Of a DNA stretch of 62,858 bases, positions 6,037 to 37,079 are shown piece after piece; the stretch's first letter is position 1, and each line of letters begins with the position of its first letter. Position numbers and translations under genes: made by a program. A model generated the notes under the pieces. It worked only from the letters and a program-made list of their open reading frames with translations, was not told the DNA's origin and made no database searches. Source of the stretch: a virus. The DNA is taken from the IMG/VR virus record IMGVR_UViG_3300031974_002723, positions 1-62,858 of that record; one strand, given 5' to 3'.

Positions 6037-6044
6037 TATATTTG
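6037..6044 (+). promoter_or_regulatory. Late promoter TATATTTG, 4 nt before ATG
   Basis: A consensus Bacteroidota -7 box with no TTTG at -33. The ATG at 6049 begins 4 nt after the box, at the expected start of transcription. Confidence 0.68.
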
Positions 6045-6048
6045 CGCT

Positions 6049-6648
6049 ATGAGACCCAAGAAAAGGACTGGCAGGCGGCTTCGTCGCGAAGCGTTGGAGA
6101 TGTTTCCAGCTCTGAAGGCTTTGGGGAGGGTTACGGTAAAGGCTGATCCTGGATTTACGAGGGAGGCTACTGGAATAGGTGACATAGAGTACTTCGGTCC
6201 TGGTCAGAGGGTGGTCCGCTACCCCAGTGGGGCGGAGTTCAAGCACCCAGGTCCAGATAGGAGGCATGCTGTTCTCTTCAACCCAGAGACAAACAATGCT
6301 CAAGCTGTTGCTTTGGATATGCTTCACGGGATGTCAGAGGCTGACCCTAAGTTCAGGGGTATGCTGCAGGAGTTTGGGGAGGCCCTTGGAGAAGATGACG
6401 TGAGGTATTGGTATGAACAGGATCTGAAAGAGGGGTATGCTGGTGATGGGTATGAGCAGTACCGCCAGAACTACATTGACGGGAAGCTTCGTAATCTATT
6501 GTTTGAGGGGAGTGAAGAGGACTTCGCAAGATCACGCTATAACCCAAGAGAAAGACAGGATATGCGAGAGTACAACCCCAGGGCATACCAGGCTTTCGAG
6601 GATATACAGAGATATTTGAAAAGCAATGCTGATCAAGAAAGGAGATAA
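6049..6648 (+). CDS. First late gene, hypothetical protein, 199 aa
   Basis: Starts MRPKKRTGRRLRREALEMF. I prefer this ATG over the in-frame GTG at 6013, which lies upstream of the promoter box. The N-terminus is very basic, and the rest is acidic and aromatic with several Tyr-rich stretches near the C-terminus (EDDVRYWYEQD, GDGYEQYRQNY). No membrane segment or catalytic motif is recognised. It opens the late block and may be a virion or regulatory protein. Confidence 0.78.
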   Translation: MRPKKRTGRRLRREALEMFPALKALGRVTVKADPGFTREATGIGDIEYFGPGQRVVRYPSGAEFKHPGPDRRHAVLFNPETNNAQAVALDMLHGMSEADPKFRGMLQEFGEALGEDDVRYWYEQDLKEGYAGDGYEQYRQNYIDGKLRNLLFEGSEEDFARSRYNPRERQDMREYNPRAYQAFEDIQRYLKSNADQERR

Positions 6649-6754
6649 GTGGATTGTGTACGACTCTAAAGGGCAGAAGCGCTTGGGGGAGCACAGCAGC
6701 AGGAAGAAGGCGCTGGCACAGCTTCGTGCTATAGAAATCAATAAGAAGAAATAA
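6626..6754 (+). CDS. Small basic phage protein, 42 aa
   Basis: Begins MLIKKGDKWIVYDSKGQKRLG and continues with ...KKALAQLRAIEINKKK. It resembles a small protein seen in many environmental phages (a one-domain strand-strand-helix with an AL.QLRAIE motif). It overlaps the end of the 199-residue gene by 23 nt and stops 1 nt before the next ATG. Function unknown. Confidence 0.68.
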   Translation: MLIKKGDKWIVYDSKGQKRLGEHSSRKKALAQLRAIEINKKK

Positions 6755-6755
6755 G

Positions 6756-7238
6756 ATGAGACCGATAAAGAACGGTGGGGACCCGATAGACCCAAAGCGC
6801 CTGAAGAAAGGGTTGGGGTATGTAGAGAGCAGGAACAACCCTGCCGCTATGAACCCGAATAGCTCAGCTACGGGAATGTACCAGATGCTGTACAGCTTGA
6901 TTAAGAACGAGCCAGAGATGAGTGGGGTAAGCAGGGACAGCCTTTCTAGAGCACCGCACCTCCAGGAGATCCTGATGGACAGGAGAATTACAGAAGGTAT
7001 TGGGGGCCCTAGCCTTGAAAGGAATGCTGTTGATCTTGAGAGAGAGTATAAAGAACAGCTTGGAGACAAGTGGGTGTTTAGGCCTGATGAAGTGGCTGCC
7101 CTTACGCACTTCTTGGGGAGGCAGGGAACCAGAGAATACTTTGCTTCTATCAGGGACAATACAGAGTTCAAGGTTCCAGGGGTAAATAAGACTCCAGAAG
7201 ACTATTTGAGGGACTATAACAGAGGTTTGAATAATTAA
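6756..7238 (+). CDS. Lytic transglycosylase-like protein, 160 aa
   Basis: Likely cleaves the glycan strands of peptidoglycan. The N-terminal third carries the signature of SLT-type (lysozyme-fold) enzymes: YVESRNNPAA with the candidate catalytic Glu at residue 24, followed by NSSATGMYQM (about 35-44). There is no signal peptide, so it could act in lysis with a holin or travel in the virion to help DNA entry. An M15 endopeptidase lies about 1 kb downstream, giving complementary wall cuts. The catalytic Glu is read from the motif, not tested. Confidence 0.72.
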   Translation: MRPIKNGGDPIDPKRLKKGLGYVESRNNPAAMNPNSSATGMYQMLYSLIKNEPEMSGVSRDSLSRAPHLQEILMDRRITEGIGGPSLERNAVDLEREYKEQLGDKWVFRPDEVAALTHFLGRQGTREYFASIRDNTEFKVPGVNKTPEDYLRDYNRGLNN

Positions 7239-7246
7239 TATATTTG
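7239..7246 (+). promoter_or_regulatory. Late promoter TATATTTG, 4 nt before ATG
   Basis: TATATTTG overlaps the stop of the transglycosylase gene. The ATG at 7251 follows after CGTC (4 nt). No TTTG at the -33 position. Confidence 0.68.
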
Positions 7247-7250
7247 CGTC

Positions 7251-7373
7251 ATGGTGAAAGCAAAGAAGTCCTACAAGCGCGGTGGTAAAGTCGTTGCTCA
7301 GGGAGCAGATAAAAAAGACGTCCGTCGCGAGAAGAAGATGGACAGAATGATGCTTAAAAAGAAAAAGGCATGA
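7251..7373 (+). CDS. Small basic protein with GGKV motif, 40 aa
   Basis: Reads MVKAKKSYKRGGKVVAQGAD and ends in a Lys-rich tail (MMLKKKKA). The RGGKV motif recurs in other late proteins here (7370, 36159 and 50466 genes). Its stop overlaps the next ATG as ATGA, so coupling is likely. Such small basic late proteins may accompany DNA packaging, but this is speculative. Confidence 0.62.
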   Translation: MVKAKKSYKRGGKVVAQGADKKDVRREKKMDRMMLKKKKA

Positions 7374-8799: not shown

Positions 8800-9200
8800 A
8801 AGCGCTGGACGAGGAGCCTAGCCCTTTGCGTAAGCGCGTACCTAACTCTATAGTTGTACTTGGTCTCTTCTCTGAAGAGGTGATCATCGAGCGATTGTGA
8901 CGGCGTTAGCCTTTCGAAGTGCTTGTACAGGAGTTCCTCTGACTGCAAGGGGTATATGATCCTGTTCGCCATGTTGCTGCGGTTATACTGATACTGTTCA
9001 GCGGCATGGTCTATGGTAAAGAATTCTAGGTCGTAAGCCCACAGGAGGAACTCCAAGTGCTTCCAGTCAATATCATGGTGCTCGCAGAAGTCCTTCCTAA
9101 CAGAATGTAGATTCTTGAGGTAATTGTTGTTGATGTACTTCTCTTTCAGTTTAGAGAAGTCCCTGAACATGCGCTTCTTGGACACTTTTGACTTAGGCAT
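8784..9200 (-). CDS. Winged-helix (MarR-like) DNA-binding protein, 138 aa
   Basis: The only minus-strand gene inside the 46-kb late block. After a basic N-terminus (MPKSKVSKKRMF) the middle reads like a winged helix-turn-helix: LEFLLWAYDLEFFTIDHAA, then a recognition-helix-like NRSNMANRIIYPLQ, then a wing with YRVRYALTQRARLLVQRFY. It faces away from the 9220 gene, whose promoter overlaps its upstream region, and converges on the endolysin. A regulator of late or lysis genes is plausible. I saw no promoter of its own. Confidence 0.68.
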   Translation of the reverse strand: MPKSKVSKKRMFRDFSKLKEKYINNNYLKNLHSVRKDFCEHHDIDWKHLEFLLWAYDLEFFTIDHAAEQYQYNRSNMANRIIYPLQSEELLYKHFERLTPSQSLDDHLFREETKYNYRVRYALTQRARLLVQRFYQSL

Positions 9201-9215
9201 GATTACTTATCTTTG
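9187..9215 (+). promoter_or_regulatory. Late promoter TTTG-17-TATCTTTG, 4 nt before ATG
   Basis: TATCTTTG (9208-9215) precedes the ATG at 9220 by 4 nt. Here a TTTG (9187-9190) is present 17 nt upstream, so this late promoter may keep a -33 element. It overlaps the start region of the divergent winged-helix gene. Confidence 0.62.
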
Positions 9216-9219
9216 ATCT

Positions 9220-9525
9220 ATGAATTCAAAGGACAAGGAGTTTATCGCTGAAGCTTACTCCCTTATCGTTCAAATCGAGGAACTCATCAGAAGTTACGGA
9301 TACGAAGATAAGGTGATGTCGGCCATGATGCTCGGTGTCATCGATATTTCCCCAGACGACGACGTCCAAGAGGGGGACGAAGTACAGTTGAAGAGTGTGT
9401 TCAGCTACAACCTGGACAGTAAGCTTGAGCTGGAGATGGTGAAGGAAATCATGTCTCAGCAGTTCGATGATCCTGACGACGATATAGACAAACTCCTTGG
9501 AGACCTTGGTATATCACTGAACTGA
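9220..9525 (+). CDS. Acidic late hypothetical protein, 101 aa
   Basis: Starts MNSKDKEFIAEAYSLIVQIE. Helical at both ends and strongly acidic, especially the C-terminal segment (FDDPDDDIDKLLGDLG). Its stop overlaps the next ATG (TGATG). Unrecognised. Confidence 0.72.
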   Translation: MNSKDKEFIAEAYSLIVQIEELIRSYGYEDKVMSAMMLGVIDISPDDDVQEGDEVQLKSVFSYNLDSKLELEMVKEIMSQQFDDPDDDIDKLLGDLGISLN

Positions 9526-9761: not shown

Positions 9762-9765
9762 TACA

Positions 9766-10612: not shown

Positions 10613-10742
10613 TCATACCTTGAGGACGGGGGATTTTGATTGGCAGCGTCATGAAACCATGCTGAATAAGAGAATGAATATTATCGGCAGCAATGGAAAT
10701 GACGGGTATCACTACTGGGAGGACAGTTGGAACGAAGAGTAA
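10551..10742 (+). CDS. Small late hypothetical protein, about 63 aa
   Basis: The reading frame runs MEKSKKTKTTQADSQRSS and ends in an aromatic acidic tail (GYHYWEDSWNEE) that looks selected. The start is unsure because the first third overlaps the preceding gene in another frame; a TTG at about 10620 is an alternative. It overlaps the start of the secreted-protein gene. Confidence 0.42.
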   Translation: MEKSKKTKTTQADSQRSSASDHTLRTGDFDWQRHETMLNKRMNIIGSNGNDGYHYWEDSWNEE

Positions 10743-11988
10743 AGGAGTTCTACTTGCTCTTTATATTGGTCTTTCTCTTGGCTCTGCGGCTCAGTGTGAC
10801 CTTGAGCTTGTAGGTGTAGACCTTATCGAAGGGACGGTAACGGTATCGTTCAACAACACTGAGAACTGTGGTGGCACAGGCGGACCCGACGGAATTTCTG
10901 AGATCCAGTTCGGGTTTCAGGCTTTAGACGAGAACTGCAACGCCATGAATGTCGGGTGGGACTTCCCGTCTGGCGTTTCTATTCCTGACGACTCGAATCA
11001 TCCTGGATGGGTGTACTCTGCTACTACTACGGAGACACCTAGCAACTGGACAAACCTGTATGGCGATGATATTGATCCCCCGTATTATACTGGTGAGGTT
11101 ATAGACTTCCCTATCTACAATGTGTACCAATCTTCATCTGGAGGTTTGTGGTACCAGATGGAGGATATCCTTGGATATTGGATTGACGAGGGGTATAGCA
11201 TACAAGTTGTTATTTGGCAGATCAGCTATGGCCCCACCATGTATGCTGAAGACGGTGGGTGGGCTGAGGTAGGACCCAACGGAGACGGGAGCAGCTGGGG
11301 GAGCGGGGTCTATGACGACGAGAACTTCCTTGACAACTGGGTTGTGATTGGTCCTTGTGGGGAGTGTGTCCCAGAGGTTGTAACGGATACGGTTTACGTA
11401 GACCTCCCTGCAGATACAGTAACCGTCTTTGAATCAGATACGATCATTCAGTATGATACCACATACACTTACATAACGGACACGTTGTACCTCGTCGATG
11501 TGGACACTTCATATATCACTTTAATCGACACCGTCTATCTTACTGATTATCAAACTGATACCGTCATTGTCGTTGACATAGACACTTCATATATTAGTTT
11601 AACTGACACCATATACGTTACTGAGTATCAAATAGATACAACGAGTGTATATGAATATGACATGGTTGAAGTTGACTGCAGTACAGGTCAGCCATGTGTC
11701 AGTCCGTTCTCTGATTGCTCTATATACATACCGAACTCTTTTACCCCTAACAACGATGGGGTGAACGATGTATGGGGAGCCGAGACGGACTCTTTTTGTT
11801 GGGCGAGCTGGAGAATGAAGGTGTTCTCAAGGACTGGCGAACTGGTATGGGAGAGTTACGATCCAGATGATATTTGGCTTGGTGGAGACGAGTACTATGT
11901 CCCTAACGACATGTATATTTACAGAGTGGAATGTGAGGGATACGGGGAGTCATACATCATAAACGGTCACGTGACCATTATCAGATAA
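10699..11988 (+). CDS. Secreted protein with T9SS type B sorting domain (CHU_C-like), 429 aa
   Basis: The N-terminus has a basic stretch, a hydrophobic core and a signal-peptidase-like site (VLLALYIGLSLGSAAQ/C, about 17-32). The last ~87 residues match the gliding-motility-associated CHU_C domain used as a type IX secretion signal: YIPNSFTPNNDGVNDVWG, then MKVFSRTGELVWES, then NGHVTIIR at the very end. Between them lie a Trp/Gly-rich domain with paired Cys (about 35-230) and Thr/Asp repeats (about 237-333). A host secretion system would export it, and a virus-encoded cargo is unusual. Roles could be surface display, receptor masking or superinfection exclusion. It sits in the late block, not in a cargo island. 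Confidence 0.8.
   Translation: MTGITTGRTVGTKSKGVLLALYIGLSLGSAAQCDLELVGVDLIEGTVTVSFNNTENCGGTGGPDGISEIQFGFQALDENCNAMNVGWDFPSGVSIPDDSNHPGWVYSATTTETPSNWTNLYGDDIDPPYYTGEVIDFPIYNVYQSSSGGLWYQMEDILGYWIDEGYSIQVVIWQISYGPTMYAEDGGWAEVGPNGDGSSWGSGVYDDENFLDNWVVIGPCGECVPEVVTDTVYVDLPADTVTVFESDTIIQYDTTYTYITDTLYLVDVDTSYITLIDTVYLTDYQTDTVIVVDIDTSYISLTDTIYVTEYQIDTTSVYEYDMVEVDCSTGQPCVSPFSDCSIYIPNSFTPNNDGVNDVWGAETDSFCWASWRMKVFSRTGELVWESYDPDDIWLGGDEYYVPNDMYIYRVECEGYGESYIINGHVTIIR
11494..11649 (+). repeat. Two tandem 78-bp repeats inside the secreted-protein gene
   Basis: Copies at 11494-11571 and 11572-11649 encode 26-residue units beginning VD[VI]DTSYI[ST]L and containing DT[VI]Y[LV]T[DE]YQ. The units differ mostly by conservative changes, and less perfect units precede them. 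Such Thr/Asp beta-stalk repeats are typical of Bacteroidota surface proteins ahead of a sorting domain. Confidence 0.75.
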
Positions 11989-12203: not shown

Positions 12204-12247
12204 ATTTTCGACGAGACGGCCCCCTACGCAAATGGGGTTGATCAAAC

Positions 12248-12321: not shown

Positions 12322-12333
12322 CAATTCAATACA

Positions 12334-12465: not shown

Positions 12466-12480
12466 TTTTCCCTTACCTTT

Positions 12481-12554: not shown

Positions 12555-12568
12555 CAATTGAATTCATC

Positions 12569-14846: not shown

Positions 14847-14852
14847 CTTTGC

Positions 14853-14860
14853 TATATTTG
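14853..14860 (+). promoter_or_regulatory. Late promoter TATATTTG before the portal gene
   Basis: TATATTTG lies 7 nt before the portal ATG. A second overlapping -7-like box (TAACTTTG, 14844-14851) contains the terminase stop codon. No TTTG at -33. Confidence 0.65.
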
Positions 14861-14867
14861 CCGATAG

Positions 14868-17342
14868 ATGTACGGCAGCAAAGGAAATAAAAGCGTAAAC
14901 TTTCCTGACCCCTTGGCTCCCTCTGAAAAAAAGAAGGGGAAGGCCTATGGTCTTCAGTACGCCAAATCGATAGCTGCTCAGTGGGGCACTGTCGCTCAGG
15001 ACAACTCTCTGATGAAGAAGAGGAGGGTGGTTTTTGACAGGAACAGAAAGTACGCCAACGGAACCCAGGACACCTCGATATACAGGCAGCTTTTGACGAG
15101 CCTGGACCCGTCTAACGGGGACGGAAGCTTCCTGAACCTTGACTTCACTCCTGTCCCCATCCTCCCGAAGTTCGTGAGGATCGTGGTCAACAAGATTCTT
15201 TCTAGCGAACCATATCCGAACCTGGAGGCTGTGGATCCGCTCTCTTCTAGTGAGAAGGATCTGGAGAGAAAGAAAGTGGAGATGGCTGTAGCAAACAAGA
15301 AGAAGCTGCAGGCCATTCAAGAAAAGACAGGGGTGAACATCTCTGAGATGGATGAGATTCCTGACACTCTTGAGGAGGCAGAGATCTTCATCGGGAATAA
15401 CATCAAGTCTTCTTCTGAGATTGCCGCTCAGGTGGCGACCAACATGACCCTGAAGTGGAACGACTTCAGTGATTCTACTTACAGGAGGTGCGTCAATGAC
15501 CTTACCACCTGTGGTATGGCTGTCACCAAGCGCAGCAACGACCCCAACCAAGGGATTAAGGTTGAGTACGTCGATCCAGCGGAGTTCATACACAGCTACA
15601 CCAACGACCCCAACTTCGGGGACATTGTGTATGCTGGTCACGTGAAAATGATTCCGATCCACGAACTCAAGAGGATCGCTGGTGATCAGTTCACAGAAGA
15701 CGAATACAAGGAGATCGCTCAAGCCGCAGCAAAGAAGTATGGATATGATACCTCCAGGTTTGGTCAGTCCAGGTACGACGACTATCTGAAGAGACACAAG
15801 TTTGGGTATGACGAGTATATGGTTGAGGTTCTGGACTTTGAGTTCATTTCCATAGACCCGATATACTTTGAGGAGAAGGAGAGCAAGTACGGCAACGTAG
15901 GGTTCTATAAGAAAGGCGAGAACTACAAGGCTCCGTCCAACTCTGTTTACAAGAGGTCTGTTAGCAGGCTGGATAACTCCACTGTGTACGGCGGCACGTA
16001 CATCATGGGGTGCGACAAGATCTTCAACTACGGCCTGAAGACGAACATCCCGAAGAACATGCACGACCTGACCAGGGCGAACATGTCTTACTCCGTGGTG
16101 GCAACCAACATGGAGGACATGATCCCTAAGTCCATGGTGGATAGCTGCATTGGATTCGCGGACCAGCTTCAGCTTACACACCTGAAGATCCAGCAGGCAA
16201 TCGCAAAAGCAAAACCCGATGGCATCATCATTGATATCGAGGGTTTGGAGAATGTTCAGCTCGGAAAAGGAGGTGAACTCCAGCCGCTCGAACTGCACGA
16301 CATCTATGAGCAAACTGGCGTCTTCTACTACAGGAGTAAGAACCCTGAAGGCGGCTTCCAGAACCCTCCCATCAGGGAGATCAATAACAGTGTACGGAAC
16401 ATCAACGAGTTCATCGCGCTGTACAACCACTACCTGAGAATGATTCGTGATGCTACGGGCATCAACGAGGCTATGGACGGGACCACTCCGAAGGGCGAGC
16501 AGCTTGTTGGGGTTCGTCAGCAAGCCATTGCTGCAGGAAACAACGCTATCTACGACATCACGAACTCCTCCATGGTTTTGTTCAAAAAGGTGTGCTCAGA
16601 CATTGTCAAGTGCCTGCAGATCATCCCAAGGAACAGCATCCTGTTCAGGGCTTATGAAACCGCCATTGGAAAGGAGAACATGAGGATGATCAACACCTTC
16701 TCTAATCTGTCTATGTACAACTTCGGGGTCACCGTAGTTAAAGAGATGGAGGAGGTTGAAAAGCAGTATCTGGAACAAAACATCCAGGTGTCATTGGCTC
16801 AGAAAGAGCTCGACATCGAAGACGCCATCGCGATCAGGCAACTCAAGGACATCAACCAAGCTGAGAGACTGCTTGTGGTTAGGCGCAAGAAGCGCATGGC
16901 CGCAAACCAGCAGATAGCTCAGCAGAATGTTCAAATGCAAGCTCAGGCCCAGGCTCAGTCTGCACAGGCTGCAAGCCAGGCTAAGATGCAAGAGATGCAG
17001 ATGAAGGCTCAGATCGATTCGCAGATGGAGCAGATGAAGGCCCAACTGGAGGCCCAGATGGAGTCTCTCAAGCATGAGCACAGAAAGGAGATCGAAATGA
17101 TCAAGGCTCAGGCTACGCTTGGATTCAAGGAGGACGAGAAGAACTTCAGGGAAAAGCTCGAAGTCTTGAAAGAAGACAGAAAGGACGACAGAGTGAAGAA
17201 GCAGGCCACTGAGCAGAGCAAGCTCATTTCACAGAGGCAAGGCGAGCGCGGCGAACTTGCTGAGCAAGAGGAGGTTACCGAGGATACCGCACCGCAGGAC
17301 ATTATAAATCAGATCATACAAAATGGCACAAGTCAATCTTGA
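14868..17342 (+). CDS. Portal protein, 824 aa
   Basis: Forms the dodecameric DNA channel at one vertex of the head. Placement directly after terminase, size, and the segment VEYVDPAEFIHSYTNDPNF followed by VYAGHVKMIPIHELKRIA match crAss-like portals from memory. Residues about 640-790 form a long Gln/Ala/Glu/Lys-rich coiled coil (QAQAQAQSAQAASQAKM, then EMIKAQATLGF), longer than in most portals. The arginines checked in the first 130 residues are almost all AGG/AGA. Its end overlaps the next ATG by 20 nt. Confidence 0.9.
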   Translation: MYGSKGNKSVNFPDPLAPSEKKKGKAYGLQYAKSIAAQWGTVAQDNSLMKKRRVVFDRNRKYANGTQDTSIYRQLLTSLDPSNGDGSFLNLDFTPVPILPKFVRIVVNKILSSEPYPNLEAVDPLSSSEKDLERKKVEMAVANKKKLQAIQEKTGVNISEMDEIPDTLEEAEIFIGNNIKSSSEIAAQVATNMTLKWNDFSDSTYRRCVNDLTTCGMAVTKRSNDPNQGIKVEYVDPAEFIHSYTNDPNFGDIVYAGHVKMIPIHELKRIAGDQFTEDEYKEIAQAAAKKYGYDTSRFGQSRYDDYLKRHKFGYDEYMVEVLDFEFISIDPIYFEEKESKYGNVGFYKKGENYKAPSNSVYKRSVSRLDNSTVYGGTYIMGCDKIFNYGLKTNIPKNMHDLTRANMSYSVVATNMEDMIPKSMVDSCIGFADQLQLTHLKIQQAIAKAKPDGIIIDIEGLENVQLGKGGELQPLELHDIYEQTGVFYYRSKNPEGGFQNPPIREINNSVRNINEFIALYNHYLRMIRDATGINEAMDGTTPKGEQLVGVRQQAIAAGNNAIYDITNSSMVLFKKVCSDIVKCLQIIPRNSILFRAYETAIGKENMRMINTFSNLSMYNFGVTVVKEMEEVEKQYLEQNIQVSLAQKELDIEDAIAIRQLKDINQAERLLVVRRKKRMAANQQIAQQNVQMQAQAQAQSAQAASQAKMQEMQMKAQIDSQMEQMKAQLEAQMESLKHEHRKEIEMIKAQATLGFKEDEKNFREKLEVLKEDRKDDRVKKQATEQSKLISQRQGERGELAEQEEVTEDTAPQDIINQIIQNGTSQS

Positions 17343-23670: not shown

Positions 23671-23678
23671 TATATTTG
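23671..23678 (+). promoter_or_regulatory. Late promoter TATATTTG, 5 nt before ATG
   Basis: TATATTTG followed by TAGTC and the ATG at 23684. No TTTG at -33. Confidence 0.66.
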
Positions 23679-23683
23679 TAGTC

Positions 23684-23977
23684 ATGTCTGACAACAGGGT
23701 TAAGAATCTTCTTAAAAAACACAGACTCGCTGGTGTGAACAAGCCTAAAAGGACGCCTTCACATCCGAAGAAGTCTCATATGGTGCTGGCTAAGGTGGGG
23801 GACAAGGTTCGGTTGATCCGCTTCGGTGAGCAGGGTGCCAGTACCGCTGGCAAGCCAAAATCAGGGGAGAGCGACAGGATGAAAAAGAAGAGATCAAGCT
23901 TTAAGGCCAGACACGGTAAAAACATAGCTAAAGGCAAGATGAGCGCAGCATACTGGGCAGACAAAGTAAAGTGGTAA
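23684..23977 (+). CDS. Small basic conserved phage protein, 97 aa
   Basis: Starts MSDNRVKNLLKKHRLAGVNK. The middle contains KVGDKVRLIRFGEQGAS, and the C-terminus reads SFKARHGKNIAKGKMSAAYW. This C-terminal pattern is widely found in marine and Bacteroidota phages; its role is unknown. Highly basic, so it may bind DNA. Confidence 0.75.
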   Translation: MSDNRVKNLLKKHRLAGVNKPKRTPSHPKKSHMVLAKVGDKVRLIRFGEQGASTAGKPKSGESDRMKKKRSSFKARHGKNIAKGKMSAAYWADKVKW

Positions 23978-25964: not shown

Positions 25965-25966
25965 TC

Positions 25967-26402: not shown

Positions 26403-26410
26403 TATATTTG
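26403..26410 (+). promoter_or_regulatory. Late promoter TATATTTG before scaffold and capsid genes
   Basis: TATATTTG is followed 14 nt later by the ATG at 26425, with TTTAATTC just before the ATG, as also before the 29391 gene. The short leader makes this unit slightly different from the 4-nt promoters. Confidence 0.65.
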
Positions 26411-26424
26411 CTAAAATTTAATTC

Positions 26425-27498
26425 ATGGAAGATCAACAAGTTAACCCTGCCGAGGGTCAGGAGTCTAGCGGCTTCACCTTCGTAGACGAGTCCGAGGTTG
26501 CAGCTGCAATGGCAGCTCAGCAAGAGGAACCGCAGGTTGAACAAGTACAAGAGCCTGTTGCCCCTGCCCCGCAGGAAGAACAGACTCAAAACATCGAGAC
26601 TTCAACGGAAGATACTCAGACTGAATATACAAGCCAATACTCTCAAGAAGACGTAGAAGGTGCGGTCTTGGAATACCTGAGCGAAAGGCTGGGTACTGAG
26701 ATTCAATCTCTCGACGACTTCATGGGGGTTCAGCAACAAGAGAGCGTGCTTGACGAGCGCATTGCGGCTATAGCGCAATTCGTAGAAGACACTGGCAGGG
26801 CTCCTCAAGATTGGTTCATTTACCAGCAGCTCAACCCTTCCGAAATGGATGACATGACTGCTATCCAGGTGCAAATGGCATCTGACTACCCGAACCTGTC
26901 ACAAGAAGAGGTCGCCACGCTGATGTCCAGTAAGTACAAGCTCGATCCTAATCTGCACACAGAGGATGAGGTGAAACTCTCGCAGTTGCAACTGAAAATC
27001 GACGCTCAGAATGCGCGTCAGGCCATCGACAAACTGAGAGATCAGTATGCCGCGCCTGAGGTGCAGGAGAGGGTTGACGACAGTTCTCCTTTCGACGAAA
27101 GCTGGTACAGCTCAATGCGGACTGAAACGGAAGCCCTTGATGGGGTCGAATTTGACCTTGGGAACGGGAATACTTTCACGTTTGGATTGAACAGCCAGTA
27201 CCGCAATGAGTTGATGGAGAAGAACACTCGCCTTGACGAGTTCTTTGATCCTTACGTCCAACGGGATGGGAGCTGGGACTACGACAAGCTGAATGTTCAC
27301 AGAGCCGTGCTCGACAATATGGAACAGATAGTTCAATCTGTCTACCGCCAAGGTATGGCAGACGGTCAGAAAGGCATTGTGAACCAGGCAGCTAACGTAA
27401 GCGTCCAGACCCCGAATCAAGGTGGGCAACCTCAGGAAGATAGCCTTGCAGCTCAGCTTCGGCAGGCGCTGGGAGGGGACTCTACCTGGTCTTTTTAA
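26425..27498 (+). CDS. Scaffolding protein candidate, 357 aa
   Basis: Placed immediately before the major capsid gene, with the usual scaffold composition: a Glu/Gln/Pro-rich disordered N-terminus (VEQVQEPVAPAPQEEQ), a long helical middle (about 90-300), and a Gln-rich C-terminus ending ALGGDSTWSF. It would guide capsid assembly and be removed or retained inside. I saw no protease motif. The family is not recognised, so the call rests on position and composition. Confidence 0.7.
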   Translation: MEDQQVNPAEGQESSGFTFVDESEVAAAMAAQQEEPQVEQVQEPVAPAPQEEQTQNIETSTEDTQTEYTSQYSQEDVEGAVLEYLSERLGTEIQSLDDFMGVQQQESVLDERIAAIAQFVEDTGRAPQDWFIYQQLNPSEMDDMTAIQVQMASDYPNLSQEEVATLMSSKYKLDPNLHTEDEVKLSQLQLKIDAQNARQAIDKLRDQYAAPEVQERVDDSSPFDESWYSSMRTETEALDGVEFDLGNGNTFTFGLNSQYRNELMEKNTRLDEFFDPYVQRDGSWDYDKLNVHRAVLDNMEQIVQSVYRQGMADGQKGIVNQAANVSVQTPNQGGQPQEDSLAAQLRQALGGDSTWSF

Positions 27499-27532: not shown

Positions 27533-28927
27533 ATGTCTGCAATTGCTGCAAGTAAAGCAGGTGGTGTGACTCTGAGCGGTCATGCTGCCTCTCTGAAAAC
27601 CGCTCCCGACAAGTACATCTCGTTGGGAGATCTCCTTGATCCGACCAAGCCCGACAACAGGGACCTTTTGGTGAACACCTACGGTGACCAGGGCATCACT
27701 GGATTCCTCCAGCTGACTGGCGCTGTCCGTAACGGTGGTACCGCCGATGAGGTTCAGTGGTGGGAAGAAGGTCGTCTCCACAAGACGGCTTCCATCACCC
27801 TCGCTGCTGGTTCGGCTACTGGTCAAGGAACACTGACCACTTCTGACACGCTCCGTGCTAACGACGTCCTCCTGACTCAAGCTGGCGACCGCCTGGTTGT
27901 GATCGACCCGACGTCCGCAAGCACTGACAACGTCAAGACCCTGGACGGAACCGCTGTGAACGCCATCACTGTCGCTGAAGACGTTGCCATCATCGGTAAC
28001 ATCTACGCTCAGGGTACGTCTCAGCCGAGCTCCTTCTACCAGACGGAGGTCAACAAGATGATCAACCCGTACTTCATCACCAAGGAAACCTACCACGTGA
28101 CTGGTTCCCAAGCCACGAACATTGGCTGGATCAACGTTGGTAACGGTGACTACAGGTGGTACGTGAAGGGCGAGATGGACACTCGTAAGCGTTTCATGAA
28201 CCAGCGTGAGATGATGATGCTGTTGGGTCAGAACCCCGTCAACCCGATCGGTGGTACTCTCGACTCCACTGCTGACCTCACCCTGACGGACGGCACGACG
28301 AACCTCGGCAGCATTGCTGGTTCTGAGGGCTACTTCCAAGCTGTTGAGCGCAGAGGTATCACGACGACGGGCACGTTTGGTGACGGTGCTGGATTCGCTG
28401 ACATTGACGAGATCATCTTCGAGCTCGACAAGCAAGGCGCTCCTGCTGAGTACGCCATGTACGTTGACACGGCTACGTCCCTCGCTATCGACGACATGCT
28501 TGCTGCTGGTATCGCTACCCAGACCACTGCTGGTCTGCCTGGTCAGTTCGGAGCCTTCCAGAACAGTGCCGACATGGCCGTTCAGCTTGGCTTCAAGAGC
28601 TTCTCCAGAGGTAGCTACACCTTCCACAAGCACGGTTGGAAGCTCCTGAGCGACCCGACCCTCCTCGGTGCGTTCACGAACAAGCCGTACAAAGGTGCTA
28701 TGGTTCCGATGACGCAGGTTGCTGACGCCAAGACTGGTGTTAAGTCCCCTGCTCTGGAGATGAACTACAAGGAAGTGAACGGCTACGGTCGTGAGCTTGA
28801 GCACTGGGTGGAAGGCGGTGGCGTCCTCGGATTCGCTACCAACGACCAGGACGTGGCTAAGTTCCACTACCGTTCTGAGGCCAACCTCGTGACCCGCGCT
28901 GCTAACCAGCACGTGGTGCTCACCTGA
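27533..28927 (+). CDS. Major capsid protein (crAss-like), 464 aa
   Basis: Forms the head shell (HK97 fold expected). Starts MSAIAASKAGGVTLSGHAAS. The segment GDYRWYVKGEMDTRKRFMNQ, followed by REMMMLLGQNPV, resembles crAss-like capsid proteins as I know them. It has a Gly/Thr-rich insertion around residues 65-130 and no obvious prohead protease site. Codons look optimised (CTC, CGT, AAC), unlike the AGR-rich neighbours. A hairpin follows the stop. Confidence 0.88.
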   Translation: MSAIAASKAGGVTLSGHAASLKTAPDKYISLGDLLDPTKPDNRDLLVNTYGDQGITGFLQLTGAVRNGGTADEVQWWEEGRLHKTASITLAAGSATGQGTLTTSDTLRANDVLLTQAGDRLVVIDPTSASTDNVKTLDGTAVNAITVAEDVAIIGNIYAQGTSQPSSFYQTEVNKMINPYFITKETYHVTGSQATNIGWINVGNGDYRWYVKGEMDTRKRFMNQREMMMLLGQNPVNPIGGTLDSTADLTLTDGTTNLGSIAGSEGYFQAVERRGITTTGTFGDGAGFADIDEIIFELDKQGAPAEYAMYVDTATSLAIDDMLAAGIATQTTAGLPGQFGAFQNSADMAVQLGFKSFSRGSYTFHKHGWKLLSDPTLLGAFTNKPYKGAMVPMTQVADAKTGVKSPALEMNYKEVNGYGRELEHWVEGGGVLGFATNDQDVAKFHYRSEANLVTRAANQHVVLT

Positions 28928-29361: not shown

Positions 29362-29390
29362 TCTTACTTTCACTTTTAAATTTTAATTCA

Positions 29391-30203: not shown

Positions 30204-30223
30204 GAACGACTAGAACCTTACGG

Positions 30224-30249
30224 AAAGGCCGCCTTCGGGCGGCTTTTTC
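30224..30249 (+). terminator. Rho-independent terminator
   Basis: GCCGCC-TTCG-GGCGGC (30228-30243) with a stable TTCG loop and a following TTTTTCTTTTC tract, in the classic form. It sits directly upstream of the next TATATTTG promoter. Confidence 0.85.
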
Positions 30250-30255
30250 TTTTCG

Positions 30256-30263
30256 TATATTTG
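30256..30263 (+). promoter_or_regulatory. Late promoter TATATTTG, 4 nt before ATG
   Basis: TATATTTG + TCTC + ATG (30268). The -33 position falls in the terminator stem, so no TTTG there is possible. This is the cleanest example of a late unit with a leaderless start. Confidence 0.7.
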
Positions 30264-30267
30264 TCTC

Positions 30268-31014
30268 ATGGCAGCAAGTGTAGCCGCAGCATACAGGACC
30301 CTGAAGGATCTGGCCAATAAGGATCAAAACGGATTTGTTACACCCACAGTGTTCAACAACTTCGCTCAGATCGCTCAGCTCAGAATTTTCAATCGTCTGT
30401 TCGATGAACTCAAGGATGCCAAGAGGCTGTCTCGCGCTCAGTTCAACCCTGGCAGAGACAAATCTAGGTTCAAGAGAATCGAAGAAGACTTGAGTTACTT
30501 TGCTAAGACGGCAATAATCAACAAGGCGAATGGCGTCTTTGACAAGACTACTGCGGCTGACGATGTCGCACGTATCATAAGCCTTACAACGAACGGAAGC
30601 GTCATTCTCGGTCAGTCTACTAGGACGGCCATTGACATGTGCTACGACGAGGATAAGATCGAAAGAATCTTGATCAGCGACCTGAGCAAGCCTACGGAGA
30701 ATGCTCCTGTAGCTCTGGTCAGCGAGAATATTGAGGTCTTTCCTGACAGCATAAACTCCATCCGAATGAGGTACTACAAGTATCCTCAGGGTGTGACCAG
30801 CGCTGGAGCCAGGACTGCAACTCCCCCTACCGTGGTGGTGGATGCTAACGATACGCCGCTGGCTACTTCTACGGACTTTGAGCTTCCCGACCACTACCTC
30901 AATGATATCGTGATGGAGATGGCTCAGCTCATCGGAATCAACCTCAGGGACCAGTTCGCTGCCGCAGCTGCTCAAGGAGAACAGACTGAGCGCAAACAAG
31001 AAAGTACATTCTGA
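30268..31014 (+). CDS. Connector/adaptor protein candidate, 248 aa
   Basis: Starts MAASVAAAYRTLKDLANKDQ. A helical protein with a long loop and a C-terminal Ala/Gln/Glu helix. Order and size match the ring or adaptor protein that follows the capsid module in crAss-like phages, but no motif is unique. The next gene starts by a 1-nt overlap. Confidence 0.68.
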   Translation: MAASVAAAYRTLKDLANKDQNGFVTPTVFNNFAQIAQLRIFNRLFDELKDAKRLSRAQFNPGRDKSRFKRIEEDLSYFAKTAIINKANGVFDKTTAADDVARIISLTTNGSVILGQSTRTAIDMCYDEDKIERILISDLSKPTENAPVALVSENIEVFPDSINSIRMRYYKYPQGVTSAGARTATPPTVVVDANDTPLATSTDFELPDHYLNDIVMEMAQLIGINLRDQFAAAAAQGEQTERKQESTF

Positions 31015-31832
31015 TGGCTAGGAACTACGTAACACTCGAACAGGTCGTAAATGACTTCATACTCACCCTAGACACGGATGACTATGCAAGCAGCGCTTCT
31101 GATTTCGCGATCAGAAGTTTTGCTCTTAGGGGGGTTCGTGAGATGGGGTTTGATCTTCTCAAGGTCATCAGGTCTTTGAAGCTGTCCGTTGACGCTAACA
31201 ATACTTCCACTCTCCCTGACGATTATGTGGATTGGTCTAAGATCGGTCTTGTGGGTAGTGATGGGTTGGTCTACGTACTTGGCGAGAACAAGAACATCAA
31301 TTATTCTCAGAAGTACTCTACTTCCAATGGGAATACTTACGATACGGACGGTGATGGACTTCTGGATAGGGAGGACGACAAGACGGCTACTTCTGGTGCT
31401 GGCAATGTCAACGATCTCGGAGACGGCATGGAGTCCTATATCTTCAGGAACTACATCTACGAAAACGATCACGGTCGTCTCTACGGAATTGGTGGGGGTC
31501 AATATCACGGCGAGTTCAGGGTAAACCTGGATCAGAACAGAATCGAACTCAAGACCAATACAAACGTGTCTGAGATCGTTATTGAATACGTGGCAGACGA
31601 AGGAAGGGCAACCAACCCTCAGGTTCACGTTTATGCAGAGGAAGCCTTGAGGGCTTATATCTACTACAAGATCATTGAGCGGAAGTCTTCTGTTCCCGCA
31701 AGCGAGAAGGCCAGGGCCAGACAGGAGTACTACAACGAGCGCAGGAAAGCCAATGCTCGCATGAAGTCCTTTACGAAGGAGGAGGCCCTCAAGACGATTC
31801 GTAAGAACTACAAGCAAGCACCTAAGGGCTAA
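31014..31832 (+). CDS. Head-tail connector protein candidate, 272 aa
   Basis: Starts MARNYVTLEQVVNDFILTLD. It contains an EF-hand-like DTDGDGLLDRED near residue 110, suggesting a calcium-stabilised loop. The C-terminus is basic and helical (KSFTKEEALKTIRKNYKQ). Position after the adaptor and before the large tail protein fits a second connector ring. Confidence 0.68.
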   Translation: MARNYVTLEQVVNDFILTLDTDDYASSASDFAIRSFALRGVREMGFDLLKVIRSLKLSVDANNTSTLPDDYVDWSKIGLVGSDGLVYVLGENKNINYSQKYSTSNGNTYDTDGDGLLDREDDKTATSGAGNVNDLGDGMESYIFRNYIYENDHGRLYGIGGGQYHGEFRVNLDQNRIELKTNTNVSEIVIEYVADEGRATNPQVHVYAEEALRAYIYYKIIERKSSVPASEKARARQEYYNERRKANARMKSFTKEEALKTIRKNYKQAPKG

Positions 31833-34800
31833 TGATCGATAAGACTTTCCCGAACAGACTACAGACTGATACCGATCAGAAGTATGTGCGCCCAGAGGTG
31901 GGGGAGATGGTGGACGCTCAAAACGTCACTATCTCTGAAGGGGGTACGAACTCTGGTGGAGTCATTAAGAACGTTAGGGGTACGACAGCAGCCACTGCAA
32001 CGGCAGAGAATAGGATTGTAGACGGAGACGCCTTTACAGTTATCGGTAGCGTCTCAGATCCTCAGCGTGGATACATATACTGGTTTGTTTCCGACGATAG
32101 CGGGAACACAGAGGACGCCATTTACAGGCAGGATGTAAGCGACAACACTTACGAGATTGTCATTAAGAGCACTGCTCTGAACTTCAGGTCTACTGATTTC
32201 GTCAAGGCTGACGTTGTAAATGCAGCGTTCCAGCAGGACGATGTTGTGCAAACAGCACTGTTCTTTACGGACAACTACAACCCACCTAGAAAAATCAACG
32301 TCGATAGAGCCATCAATGGTGACTACGACGGCATTACACTGAACAGTCAGGTTCACAACCTTGGTGACGCCATCTCCACGGTCAAAGCGGCTGAAACCAG
32401 GAACCCGACCTTCTACTTCTCTACAGACGAAGACATCCAGGGGAATAAGTTCGTCAATGCTGCATATCAGTTTGCTACGCAATATGTGTATCGGGATGGC
32501 GAGGTTTCTGCTATCTCTCCATACTCCCCATTGGCCGTCTCCGCTGCAGCGGCACTAAGGAATCAAGAGGGCGATGACTCTGCGTCTCTCGCCCCGTACA
32601 CTCAAAATGTATGTGAGGTAACCCTGAATGTAAACCCTGTTTTGCCAGATATGGCTGAGGTTAGGCTTTTGGCTAGAGAGGGGAATAATGGGGCTTTCTT
32701 TATCGTTGATCAGTTTGATCCGTCTCAGGACATTTCAAGAAACGTCTACGGCACGAACAAAGACGTCTTCAATGCCGCTACGCAGATATATAGGTTCTAT
32801 AATGACAGGAACGGAGCCCTGATATCTCAGGTTGAGGTCAACAAGCTGTACGATAACGTTCCTTTCCTTGCTGCTGGACAAACAGTGGCAAGCAGCAGGC
32901 TTATGTACTCCAACTACACGGAGGGTAGAGCCAACATAGACATTTCAAACCCAGCTACGTTTACTGTAAACTACTCTGAAGCGTCTGTAGCTGGAAGGGA
33001 AGTGATGAATACTGCTGATCACTCTGCGGACACGCTGACTCAGCAGGCACTTACAGATATAGACGTACTCATAGACCTTCTTGCTGCAAGCGGTCCTATG
33101 GACGGGCTCTTGACTTCGGGGACTGCAGTTTCTACGACCCCAGTCCCGATCGGCACTCTACTCAACATCGGGTTTGATTTCGCTCCTACGCTGACCTTGT
33201 CTAGGTCTACGGCTACCGACCTGTGCTCTGTAGATGTGACTCAAATCGACGACTCTACTGGAGTTCAAACCAATGGGACCCTGAACTTCGATGAGCTTGT
33301 GCTTGACACAATTGCTGCTGAATCGACTAGCCATTCGGTTCTCATCAACATTACTACTGGAACCGCCACTACTGTATCTGGTTTGGCTTCGCTGATAATA
33401 GATGAGCTCGAAGAAATCCAGGACGTACCCGTTGTTTACGACCTTTCTTCTACTCAGGCAAGTAGCGTAGTCGGGGGTGTTTCGTCACTTTCGACCATTT
33501 CTGGAAACGTCACTGTATACTACAATTTCGAGGAGTTCGACCAGACCGAGGGGAACTCGACGGTGTCTATAAAACCAGTTGTTAGTAGAATAGACTTTAG
33601 TGAGTGTTTCTATGATACTGGAGGGGACTCCACGATGTTTGGTAGCACCGAGGATGAAGTCAACGTACTTATTGGGACCCCCACTCAGGCTCAGTTTTCG
33701 TTCACCAGCGTGGGTGCCACCTACCTGACTGAAAAGAGGACAGAGATGTCCATAGTGAACGTCAATGGATCGTTCAAGGCTGGATGCTCTCACTCCTTCG
33801 GGATTGTATTCTACGACAGATTCAATAGGTCTGGTAACGTCCAGGAGCTTGGTAGCGTATATGTAGACGCGCTCCCAGAGAGGTCGAGTGGATATGGACC
33901 AGCGTCTATAACCATTGACTTTGCTAACGCCTTTGCCAGTGCTGTACCAGACTGGGCTGTTAGGTACCAGATCGTGTACCCTGGAAGGTCTTCTATCGGG
34001 GATTTCACACAGTACACAGTGGGGGGTGGATACAGGGCCCTCAAAAAAGACACTGACGGAGACTACACTGGAACGGCTGCAGATAGCAATTCGAAAAGGA
34101 TATACGTATCCTTAAAGAATCTTGACCTCTACCAAGAGGAGAAAGGCGCGACCAGGGAATACTCTTTCACTGAGGGCGATAAGCTCAGGGTCATAAAGGG
34201 AAGAGACGCAACAGACTCAGCAGACGAGTACTACACTGCAAGCGATTCAACAATCATTGAATTTGATGTCGTTGGCGTAGAAATTCTGAGTGGTACGATC
34301 GGCGACAACCCAATAGAAGCTACAGCAATAGGGTCTGAACACAAAGGAACCTTTATTGTCTTGGAGTGCCCCGCAATCAATTCTGGGGCCAACGGGACGG
34401 ACGGGAATCCGCTGACATACACTGGCTTCGATTGGGACGATATGGCCACCAACAACTACTGGGATAGAAACATAGTTGTTGAAATCTACTCTCCGAAGTC
34501 AGAACAAGAGAATAAGGTCTATTATGAGATTGGTCATGGCGGTAGAGTTGGAGCCAGAAAAGACCCTCTTGTAAACGAGCTTGGAGACGAGATAACCGTT
34601 ACAAACGGCGATATTTTTGTCAGGCCAATATCTTGTAAATCAGTTCATTACTCGGCTGGATGGAAATCTGACGTGCCTGAAGACTGGCCTTACGAAACGC
34701 TACCTCTTGAGAGCTCTTCTTGGACTGATGCAAAGTCTGTAACCGACTGGCACAGAGGCAGGGCTCACGTCATCTTTGAGGAGGCCGCAGAAGTGAGGAG

Positions 34801-36145
34801 ACGCAACGGAATCACATACAGCGACGCATACGCTGAGGACGTCGAGGTATTTTCACTATCATCATTCAACGCTAGTCTCGGAAACTTCTTTAGCCTTGAT
34901 GCTGCCAATGGAGCATGCAACTACATCGGCGGCATGAGAGACGGATATCTGGCGGCCCTGCAAGAGAACAGTGTGGCCAGGGTCCCTCTCGGAAAGGACA
35001 TTATCACATCTCCAAACCAGAGCGGGATTGTGTCATTGAGCACAAGAGTACTTGGTGAGCCATTCTACTATATTGGTGACTTCGGATGTGGCGACAATCC
35101 TGAGTCTGTTCTTATCCGCGATGGAGGGTTGTTCTTTGTCGATACGTCTAGAAAAAAGGTCGTTAGGCTTACAGGTGAGGGGTTGTCTCCGATTTCTGAG
35201 AACGGTATAGACTCGCTCTTCAAAGACCAGTACGATCTGTTTAACGCTCAGGGCGGAACTAGGATCGTTAGCGGGTATGACCCAGAGGATAATCAGTACT
35301 ATGTGACCCTTCGGGCAGTAGGCACGTATGGCGGTATTACTCTCGGATACAGCGTTGGAAACAACACTTGGCAGAGCAGGTATACGTTCTATCCAGACAT
35401 GTATGCCGACCAGAATAGCACGATGTACAGCGCTTTCTACGTGGATCCAGTTGGAGACGACAACGCCATCATCTTCCACTCCCACGACAACGAAACAGAC
35501 TACAACACGTTCTATGGGACTGCAGCGACGTCTATCGTCAAGGTCGTAAGCAATTACAATCCTAGTATGGTCAAGGTGTTCAATGCAGTATCTCTTGAAA
35601 CAGACAGCGATACGTGGGGCGTTACGAGGATTGAGTCCAGCGAAGGGGCATACTCTGCGAGCACGAACCTCACTGAGATCGAGGGGTCTTTGTATGGGAA
35701 TATCGCGATGGACGAGTCGGGTGATTCTACGAGACACATCATACCGATTGGTGCAGTAGCTACTGGGTATACCCCGAATATTGCAACCGTTCCGTTTGAC
35801 AATAGGGTCAATGTACTTTCTCTTCCTGTGGGGGCTACTGTTATGGAGGTCGAGCTTGACGGAACGCTGGTCAATATCGGGACTCCCATCGGTGGCAACC
35901 CAACCGTAAGGACTCTTGGCAGCGTAAGTGGGATCAGGGAGATCACGCTCAATGCCGCTACTTCTGTCGACCTTGATGGAAAGAACCTGGTTCTTGTTAC
36001 AGACCAGTCTCAAAACGGAGACCCAATACGTGGCCATTGGGCCGAAATAACACTAACAAATGCTCAGACTACTCAGTTCGAGTTGTTCTGCGTAAACACT
36101 CACTTTGTGGATTCCAAGCAAAACCACGCATTAGGACAGCAATAA
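31832..36145 (+). CDS. Large tail (stabilisation/hub) protein, 1437 aa
   Basis: Starts MIDKTFPNRLQTDTDQKYVR, matching the start of the large 'stabilisation' tail protein of crAss-like phages from memory. Texture is long beta-rich Ser/Thr/Asp with several Gly/Asn loops. The last ~80 residues form an isolated beta domain. It probably forms the tail hub. It overlaps the previous gene by 1 nt and is followed by a 4-nt-spaced promoter. Confidence 0.78.
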   Translation: MIDKTFPNRLQTDTDQKYVRPEVGEMVDAQNVTISEGGTNSGGVIKNVRGTTAATATAENRIVDGDAFTVIGSVSDPQRGYIYWFVSDDSGNTEDAIYRQDVSDNTYEIVIKSTALNFRSTDFVKADVVNAAFQQDDVVQTALFFTDNYNPPRKINVDRAINGDYDGITLNSQVHNLGDAISTVKAAETRNPTFYFSTDEDIQGNKFVNAAYQFATQYVYRDGEVSAISPYSPLAVSAAAALRNQEGDDSASLAPYTQNVCEVTLNVNPVLPDMAEVRLLAREGNNGAFFIVDQFDPSQDISRNVYGTNKDVFNAATQIYRFYNDRNGALISQVEVNKLYDNVPFLAAGQTVASSRLMYSNYTEGRANIDISNPATFTVNYSEASVAGREVMNTADHSADTLTQQALTDIDVLIDLLAASGPMDGLLTSGTAVSTTPVPIGTLLNIGFDFAPTLTLSRSTATDLCSVDVTQIDDSTGVQTNGTLNFDELVLDTIAAESTSHSVLINITTGTATTVSGLASLIIDELEEIQDVPVVYDLSSTQASSVVGGVSSLSTISGNVTVYYNFEEFDQTEGNSTVSIKPVVSRIDFSECFYDTGGDSTMFGSTEDEVNVLIGTPTQAQFSFTSVGATYLTEKRTEMSIVNVNGSFKAGCSHSFGIVFYDRFNRSGNVQELGSVYVDALPERSSGYGPASITIDFANAFASAVPDWAVRYQIVYPGRSSIGDFTQYTVGGGYRALKKDTDGDYTGTAADSNSKRIYVSLKNLDLYQEEKGATREYSFTEGDKLRVIKGRDATDSADEYYTASDSTIIEFDVVGVEILSGTIGDNPIEATAIGSEHKGTFIVLECPAINSGANGTDGNPLTYTGFDWDDMATNNYWDRNIVVEIYSPKSEQENKVYYEIGHGGRVGARKDPLVNELGDEITVTNGDIFVRPISCKSVHYSAGWKSDVPEDWPYETLPLESSSWTDAKSVTDWHRGRAHVIFEEAAEVRRRNGITYSDAYAEDVEVFSLSSFNASLGNFFSLDAANGACNYIGGMRDGYLAALQENSVARVPLGKDIITSPNQSGIVSLSTRVLGEPFYYIGDFGCGDNPESVLIRDGGLFFVDTSRKKVVRLTGEGLSPISENGIDSLFKDQYDLFNAQGGTRIVSGYDPEDNQYYVTLRAVGTYGGITLGYSVGNNTWQSRYTFYPDMYADQNSTMYSAFYVDPVGDDNAIIFHSHDNETDYNTFYGTAATSIVKVVSNYNPSMVKVFNAVSLETDSDTWGVTRIESSEGAYSASTNLTEIEGSLYGNIAMDESGDSTRHIIPIGAVATGYTPNIATVPFDNRVNVLSLPVGATVMEVELDGTLVNIGTPIGGNPTVRTLGSVSGIREITLNAATSVDLDGKNLVLVTDQSQNGDPIRGHWAEITLTNAQTTQFELFCVNTHFVDSKQNHALGQQ

Positions 36146-36146
36146 C

Positions 36147-36154
36147 TATATTTG
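36147..36154 (+). promoter_or_regulatory. Late promoter TATATTTG, 4 nt before ATG
   Basis: TATATTTG right after the stop of the tail gene, then TATC and the ATG at 36159. Confidence 0.68.
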
Positions 36155-36158
36155 TATC

Positions 36159-37079
36159 ATGCCAGCACCAGCTATACTTCCTTTTCTTCCCCTTATTGGT
36201 CAGGCCGTTGGGCAGGGCATAAGGGCTATTGGTGGTGCCAGAAGGGCCAAGGCTGAAGAAGGGTTTTACAAAGACCTTCAAACTTCTGGTGAGCAGCAAG
36301 CAAAAGAACTGACTCAAAAAAGAGAAGGGCTCTACGAGGTGGGCCCTACGATGCGTAAGTATCTGCAGTACGCTATGCAGGACCCAGCTGCAGATCTAGA
36401 GCGACAAGAAGCCCAGCGTCAGTCTGGAATGGCCGTTGGAGCTCTGAAGGCAGGTGGTGCTAGGGCGATCCTTGGCGGTCTCGGAGCGCAGCAGCAGCAA
36501 GCAGCAACGAACATGGCTCGAATCGCTGCTGACGAGCAGGCAAGAAAAACTGGGGCTCTGTCTACTTATGGACGGGTTGAGGAGAATCTTAGGGGTAGGC
36601 AGTTGTCTGACGTCGGGGCTGACCTTGATACGGCAAGAGAGCAAGCCGCTTCTGGCTTGAGGGGGGCATTCATGGCGGACCAATACAGAAGAAGCATGGG
36701 TACTGAGGCTCTCGCTGGACTGGCTGGTCTTGCAGGGCAGGCTGCTGGAATGGGTGCGTTTGGAGACGGAACTGGAGGCGGATCTGCCGCAGAAAACTTC
36801 AATAACGCTGACCCCGCAACTCAGGCTTGGTTTATGGACCCTGAAAATCAGGCTATGCTTAATGCGGCTAGGTTCGCGTTTGAAAGAGGAGGTAAAGTGA
36901 AGAAGACCCCTGGTGAGTTCTCTCACGCTACCAATCCAATCAGCGTCATGAAGGACGGAGCTAAGATCGGGGAGCTGACTGGAGGTGAATACGTCCTGAA
37001 TCCTGAGCAGGCCAAGGCGATTGCCAAGCAAAGCGACATCGCCCGCAGGTTGTTTAAGAAGTTTGATAGAGAAGCCTGA
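36159..37079 (+). CDS. Ejection/internal virion protein candidate with GGK motif, 306 aa
   Basis: Starts MPAPAILPFLPLIGQAVGQG, a hydrophobic start that may meet a membrane. The middle is Ala/Gly/Gln-rich helical (GLAGLAGQAAGMGAFGDG), as in DNA ejection proteins. The C-terminus has RGGKVKKTPGEFSHATNP and GGEYVLNPEQAKAIAKQSDI, a pattern seen in many environmental phage internal proteins. Probably packaged in the virion and injected. Confidence 0.7.
   Translation: MPAPAILPFLPLIGQAVGQGIRAIGGARRAKAEEGFYKDLQTSGEQQAKELTQKREGLYEVGPTMRKYLQYAMQDPAADLERQEAQRQSGMAVGALKAGGARAILGGLGAQQQQAATNMARIAADEQARKTGALSTYGRVEENLRGRQLSDVGADLDTAREQAASGLRGAFMADQYRRSMGTEALAGLAGLAGQAAGMGAFGDGTGGGSAAENFNNADPATQAWFMDPENQAMLNAARFAFERGGKVKKTPGEFSHATNPISVMKDGAKIGELTGGEYVLNPEQAKAIAKQSDIARRLFKKFDREA

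Follow-up and report, generated by a model that had tools for sequence, protein, structure and literature searches.

Does a phage mRNA begin at the start codon itself when its promoter box lies only 4 nucleotides (nt) upstream? The question is raised by IMG/VR virus record IMGVR_UViG_3300031974_002723, the full 62,858 bases of which are termed the window here. Structural genes occupy its plus strand from about 6 to 52 kb, and replication genes with early-type promoters are on the minus strand; gene content, strand and this layout suggest the labels "late" and "early" used below. A first-pass annotation had proposed that the late mRNAs are leaderless. The analysis favours leaderless late mRNAs made from a host-type -7 box at a fixed spacing of 4 (or 5) nt, with a probability of roughly 0.83.

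Most late boxes stand at or near a fixed distance from the start codon

Nine late boxes are found in the window, seven of them TATATTTG and two of them TATCTTTG (at 9208 and 38385). The gap is the number of nt between box and ATG.

6037..6051, plus strand: late box TATATTTG, CGCT and ATG, gap 4; first late gene 6049-6648
7239..7253, plus strand: late box TATATTTG, CGTC and ATG, gap 4; directly after the stop codon of open reading frame (ORF) 6756-7238
9208..9222, plus strand: late box TATCTTTG, ATCT and ATG, gap 4; gene 9220-9525
14853..14870, plus strand: late box TATATTTG, 7 nt and ATG; portal gene 14868-17342, PHROG 6547
23671..23686, plus strand: late box TATATTTG, TAGTC and ATG, gap 5; gene 23684-23977
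26403..26427, plus strand: leadered late box TATATTTG, 14 nt and ATG; operon containing the probable major capsid gene 27533-28927
30222..30270, plus strand: intrinsic terminator 30222-30249, TATATTTG at 30256, TCTC and ATG at 30268; virion structural gene, PHROG 14543
36147..36161, plus strand: late box TATATTTG, TATC and ATG, gap 4; gene 36159-37079
38385..38413, plus strand: leadered late box TATCTTTG, 18 nt and ATG; 3222 amino acid gene 38411-48079

The gaps in genome order are 4, 4, 4, 7, 5, 14, 4, 4 and 18. All coordinates and gaps in the first-pass annotation are correct, and the boxes at 26403 (gap 14) and 38385 (TATCTTTG, gap 18) complete the nine that it counted without naming them all. 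TATATTTG is present seven times on the plus (late) strand and is absent from the minus strand, the expectation under a first-order Markov model being 0.39 per strand. The extended pattern TAT[AC]TTTG-N4-ATG is observed five times against 0.04 expected, both strands included, and the chance that at least five of nine late boxes fall at exactly gap 4 is about 2e-7.

The spacing was compared in relatives, i.e. 114 viral loci (80 related by terminase and 34 by capsid protein). A pair was counted when a TAHHTTTG box lies at most 45 nt before an ORF that starts with ATG and has 50 or more codons, with redundancy removed. The 385 non-redundant promoter-ORF pairs include 94 at gap 4, 27 at gap 5 and 28 at gap 7, the last mostly from the portal promoter. 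The histogram is bimodal: gaps 0-3, 6 and 8-13 are nearly empty, and a broad leadered class extends from 14 to about 40. Mutated boxes in the relatives give a flat distribution without a peak at gap 4. When ORFs are clustered into protein families (single-linkage BLAST) and each family has one vote, gap 4 is found in 30 of 86 families, against 3.4 expected under uniform gaps. A search for the motif in this genome and its relatives, which had been suggested as a check, thus gives a gap-4 peak far above the chance level.

Individual promoters behave differently across the relatives and across two sister groups, which were retrieved via the MW202828 and elemo terminases. At the promoter of the first late gene, 13 other loci show a gap of 4 or 5 despite differing downstream genes. 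Orthologues of the gene at 23684 have gaps of 4 (10 cases), 5 (4) and 13 (1) in the window clade, and of 16-31 in the elemo-like clade. The 26403 promoter has leadered orthologues in every case (14-24 in group A, 15-25 with one of 44 in B, and 23-35 in C). The portal promoter has a gap of 5-7 in about 25 relatives and of 14-32 in other members of the clade; its predicted leader in the window is 0-3 nt. Directly 5′ of the portal gene, at 14844-14860 (plus strand), TAACTTTG and TATATTTG form tandem boxes, and relatives show a degenerate first box. The gene at 9220-9525 has an N-terminus conserved from its ATG in relatives, and the box at 36147 begins 1 nt past the stop codon of ORF 31832-36145.

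As a host control, 20 genomes related to a metagenome-assembled genome carrying a relative of the window phage were scanned; this host assignment is weak, being based on one binned contig. These candidate hosts show no preference for gap 4, with 116 occurrences of TATATTTG-N4-ATG and 105 of TATATTTG-N6-ATG (both strands summed). Real boxes are nevertheless enriched over scrambled motifs at short gaps before ORF starts, which indicates that some short-leader host genes exist, without a sharp gap-4 peak.

Four simpler causes of the spacing were considered. Chance or base composition is ruled out by the mutated boxes, the Markov expectation and the gap-4 and gap-6 counts in hosts, and common descent of a few promoters by the occurrence of gap 4 in 30 unrelated protein families. 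Space saving does not suffice as the only cause, since the preceding gene is equally close in the clade whether the promoter is leaderless (median 12 nt) or leadered (11 nt). Correlation with high G+C is weak (Spearman 0.26, p=0.03, uncorrected for kinship).

Start site, translation and promoter class

In the proposed explanation the boxes would be -7 promoters of the host primary sigma factor, sigma-ABfr, used by a lytic podovirus-like phage of marine Bacteroidota. For most late transcripts, the box TAT[AC]TTTG would be held 4 (or 5) nt upstream of the start codon of the leading gene. Transcription by RNA polymerase would begin 4-5 nt past the box at a pyrimidine-purine step, so that the A of the AUG would be the first base of the mRNA, and a 30S or 70S ribosome would initiate on this 5′-terminal AUG without a leader. 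Downstream genes of the same transcripts would use ordinary internal initiation without a Shine-Dalgarno (SD) sequence.

The sequence at the expected start site agrees with this. A pyrimidine immediately precedes the ATG in 96% of gap-4 sites and in all 30 family representatives. A pyrimidine-purine step is the usual initiator. In leadered late promoters with the identical box the fifth base after the box is A in 66% and G in 17% (purine in 83%); an ATG imposes nothing at those sites, and the purine is thus an independent sign of +1 at this position. The Flavobacterium johnsoniae box covers -12 to -5, and transcription there often begins 4-5 nt past it (PMC6847099). This distance, the spacing and the pyrimidine-A step together point to +1 at the A of the ATG.

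Transcription might instead often start 1-4 nt upstream of the ATG, with selection maintaining a leader of 0-4 nt. The gap of 7 at the portal promoter and the gap of 5 at 27 sites would fit this, and the gap-5 class is mixed at position 4 after the box, where the start could be one base 5′ of the ATG. However, gap 4 is dominant, the pyrimidine before the ATG is almost invariant, and gaps 6 and 8-12 are nearly absent; a maintained short leader is unlikely.

The reading frames also favour a start at the A of the ATG. At gap 4, ATG serves as the start codon 92 times, GTG once and TTG never. Non-AUG starts work poorly on leaderless mRNA. An in-frame upstream stop is reached before any start codon in 98 of 121 gap-4/5 ORFs, and N-termini are conserved from the gap-4 ATG. 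Secondary structure is weaker in the first 40 nt of these mRNAs than in an internal segment of their genes (-3.8 vs -6.8 kcal/mol, n=89, p=4e-9), partly due to a lower GC content. An SD-like motif at 3-14 nt is present in none of the 39 late genes of the window, compared with 19% of other ATGs, and neither a Kozak-like A-rich nor an SD-like pattern was found at the leaderless starts. SD pairing is not used by Bacteroidota ribosomes. The SD-independent translation proposed by the first-pass annotation is thus supported.

A different role for TATATTTG would be that of a translation signal or other RNA signal in a longer mRNA, the real promoter being further upstream. Many boxes do lie within longer gene arrays, at a median of 12 nt past the preceding stop codon, and read-through mRNAs carrying the box are likely to exist too. 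This role is nevertheless very improbable. Leadered genes, at 13-40 nt from the box, are served by the same sequence, which there has a T-rich tract immediately before it and a purine as the fifth base after it. The box also conforms to the host -7 consensus TAHHTTTG, one promoter (30256) directly follows an intrinsic terminator, and the starts are without an SD-like or Kozak-like A-rich pattern.

The leaderless reading of the gap-4/5 promoters is strongly supported by the combination of exact spacing in 30 unrelated families, pyrimidine-A initiator, near-exclusive ATG, closed upstream frames and one switch in a protein tree (see below). Several points weigh against it. With its gap of 7, the portal promoter (one gene family) is better explained by a leader of 0-3 nt than by strict leaderlessness. 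Two of the nine late promoters are leadered, and leaderlessness is therefore not universal for late genes. An in-frame upstream ATG is present in 5 of the 121 gap-4/5 ORFs and a GTG or TTG in 18; the gene at 6049 has an in-frame GTG at 6013. Gene starts were predicted from ORFs and conservation, and the lateness of the genes is judged from gene content and strand. Comparative evidence thus upholds leaderless late mRNAs for the first gene of most late transcripts, but their extension to virion genes generally was too broad: of about 39 late genes, no more than about 7, the leading gene of each transcript, can be leaderless, and the capsid operon (26403) is short-leadered.

As to promoter class, TATATTTG and TATCTTTG both agree with the Bacteroidota sigma-ABfr -7 box TAHHTTTG, but the -33 TTTG of that class (at about 19-21 nt) is missing. 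Eight of the nine late promoters lack it, as first reported; the exception is the box at 9208, with a TTTG (9187-9190) at a near-normal spacing of 17. A TTTG at spacing 17-23 is found in 2 of 79 non-redundant leaderless promoters. The leadered late promoters also lack it, and in both late kinds a T-rich tract lies 4-9 nt upstream of the box. In F. johnsoniae a T-rich tract is present around -18, and the -33 motif is unclear and not obligatory (PMC6847099). The missing -33 element is a trait of late promoters, leaderless or not, and nothing out of the ordinary for the host type. It therefore does not by itself define the distinct late class that had been proposed, although the early promoters do differ:

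1040..1071, minus strand: early-type promoter TTTG-N20-TAACTTTG, ATG 26 nt downstream
2066..2097, minus strand: early-type promoter TTTG-N20-TAACTTTG, ATG 40 nt downstream
5303-5336, minus strand: early-type promoter with -33 TTTG and -7 box

Early promoters in relatives have the form AAATAAATTTGG-N20-21-TATCTTTG, with an ATG 36-50 nt downstream. The -33 TTTG is kept and conserved there, in clear contrast to the late promoters. TAACTTTGTCCACG is common to two of the three early-type promoters of the window.

The absence from late promoters of the -33 element carried by early ones could also mean that a phage-specific RNA polymerase or sigma factor reads them, in which case the F. johnsoniae start rule may not apply. 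Among crAss-like phages, giant virion RNA polymerases do occur (PMC10136315). In the window, however, the long ORFs lack the D[FY]DxD form of the RNA polymerase signature DxDxD, the 3222 amino acid protein (38411-48079) has no match to the phi14:2 RNA polymerase pieces, and none of the scanned proteins was recognised as a sigma factor. The box equals the host consensus, the fifth-base purine independently supports the same start rule, and the late genes of crAss001 and phi14:2 are thought to use host RNA polymerase. A phage enzyme is thus unlikely.

A conserved element precedes the first late box:

6018..6036, plus strand: conserved element GGCGCAAGGACT..., which begins 19 nt upstream of the first late box; candidate site for an activator

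GGCRCRARRACT is found at 19-20 nt from the box in 14 distinct loci. The element GGCGCAARRACT(GT) is present only before the box of the first late gene, in the window and in 13 loci whose downstream genes vary (L005, L009, L011, L019, L031, L040, L046, L051, L054, L057, L079, L253 and L254), and is a candidate late-activator site. The gene at 61434-62081 (minus strand) encodes a putative DNA-binding regulator with Myb/HTH-like domains, of the D5-like transcriptional regulator family, and is a possible late activator.

Leaderlessness may be a translation strategy of the late stage, with late ribosomes (e.g. 70S or altered 30S) favouring a 5′-terminal AUG over leadered host and early mRNAs. This is doubtful; it would mean that early and late genes are switched at the level of translation, in a phylum that does without SD sequences. 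No phage ribosomal protein was found among 10 late proteins scanned.

Sister clades and known leaderless systems

Among TAT[AC]TTTG promoters close to an ORF, the share with gaps of 4-5 is 38% in the window clade, compared with 6 of 80 (7.5%) in the MW202828-like clade and none of 115 (0%) in the elemo-like clade. The promoter of the gene at 30268 shows the difference most directly. Its gap is 4 in 17 phages of the window clade and 17-20 in six, compared with 12-18 in the MW202828-like group and 16-25 in true elemo-like orthologues. A major capsid protein (MCP) tree displays a single switch, the leaderless phages being one supported group nested among leadered ones; it is a quick tree in which the window itself has no state label, its gap being 4. 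The leaderless state thus seems to have arisen once at this promoter. The simplest account is that a leadered ancestor lost about 13-15 nt in a single deletion-like event and that the spacing then came under strong selection; in the leaderless orthologues the spacer letters vary and the length is constant at 4. At 30222-30263 the T-tract of the terminator merges into the -7 box, so that terminator, promoter and start codon occupy less than 50 bp, an arrangement kept across three phage groups.

Elemovirus, MW202828-like phages and Crassvirales (phi14:2, crAss001) have related terminase, portal and capsid proteins and the same -7 box before late genes. Unlike those of the window clade, late promoters of the elemo-like and MW202828-like phages are mostly leadered; those of crAss001 are essentially all leadered, and phi14:2 has a few at gap 4-6, with gaps of 4, 5 and 6 at positions 47346, 11736 and 38767 of its locus (L089). 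In a brief look at unrelated Bacteroidota phages, B40-8 has no gap-4/5 sites and P12024S has 2 of 9.

The hosts Bacteroides thetaiotaomicron, Flavobacterium psychrophilum and F. johnsoniae have the same -7 box and SD-less machinery, and occasional leaderless mRNAs. Published values for Bacteroidota hosts are about 3.7% for 5′ untranslated regions (UTRs) below 10 nt (PMC7366714), 5.5% for very short or absent leaders (PMC9723704), and, in F. johnsoniae, about 13% for leaders of at most 10 nt (PMC6847099). Very short leaders are thus a small minority in hosts, in contrast to the 38% share of gaps 4-5 in the phage clade.

Leaderless genes of Actinobacteria and Deinococcus-Thermus, as described in part of a leaderless-gene survey, carry a -10-like "TA" signal that precedes the start codon by about 10-12 bp (PMC3160421). 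The likeness lies in a promoter core at a fixed short distance and an mRNA beginning at or next to the start codon; that core, however, is the TANNNT of ordinary sigma-70, and in the window phage it is the Bacteroidota -7 box TAT[AC]TTTG. The same part of the survey lists Bacteroidetes with "atypical" genes, outside its TA-led examples (PMC3160421). Phage mRNAs without a 5′ UTR are already established, e.g. in lambda (a remark in the AR9 paper, PMC5312081), but here they would form a systematic set of late units in Bacteroidota phages, on a host-type promoter. Leaderless mRNA is thus known as a kind; the open-access literature searched yielded no account of late transcripts of this kind in Bacteroidota phages, or of their systematic use there on a host-type -7 box.

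A large marine phage clade with many AUG-starting late transcripts would be a natural system for the study of start-codon choice by Bacteroidota ribosomes, and its leadered and leaderless sister promoters permit clean swap experiments. The box plus 4 nt also gives a simple rule to predict start codons and promoters in metagenomic phages.

Kinship and layout of the window phage

The terminase, the portal and a number of virion proteins have matches among the PHROG families. Among annotated phages the nearest terminases (tblastn) are those of MW202828 (48% identity) and the Flavobacterium elemo phages (41%), followed by Cellulophaga and Azobacteroides phages; for the capsid protein, tblastn gives matches in elemo, Cellulophaga and Maribacter phage Panino. 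Judged by its homologous terminase, portal and major capsid proteins, the window phage is a relative of the crAss-like phages of Bacteroidota. It is not filed as a member of Crassvirales because no RNA polymerase signature was found.

A direct terminal repeat of 81 bp (1-81 and 62778-62858) makes the window probably a complete map; the repeat suggests a circularly closed map, and a tRNA-Arg spans it. The sole match of the 3222 amino acid protein (38411-48079, plus strand) is Phage_L5_gp82, with no detectable RNA polymerase motif. The phage protein encoded at 10693-11988 (plus strand) carries a CHU_C type IX secretion signal domain at its C-terminus (E-value = 2.6e-11).

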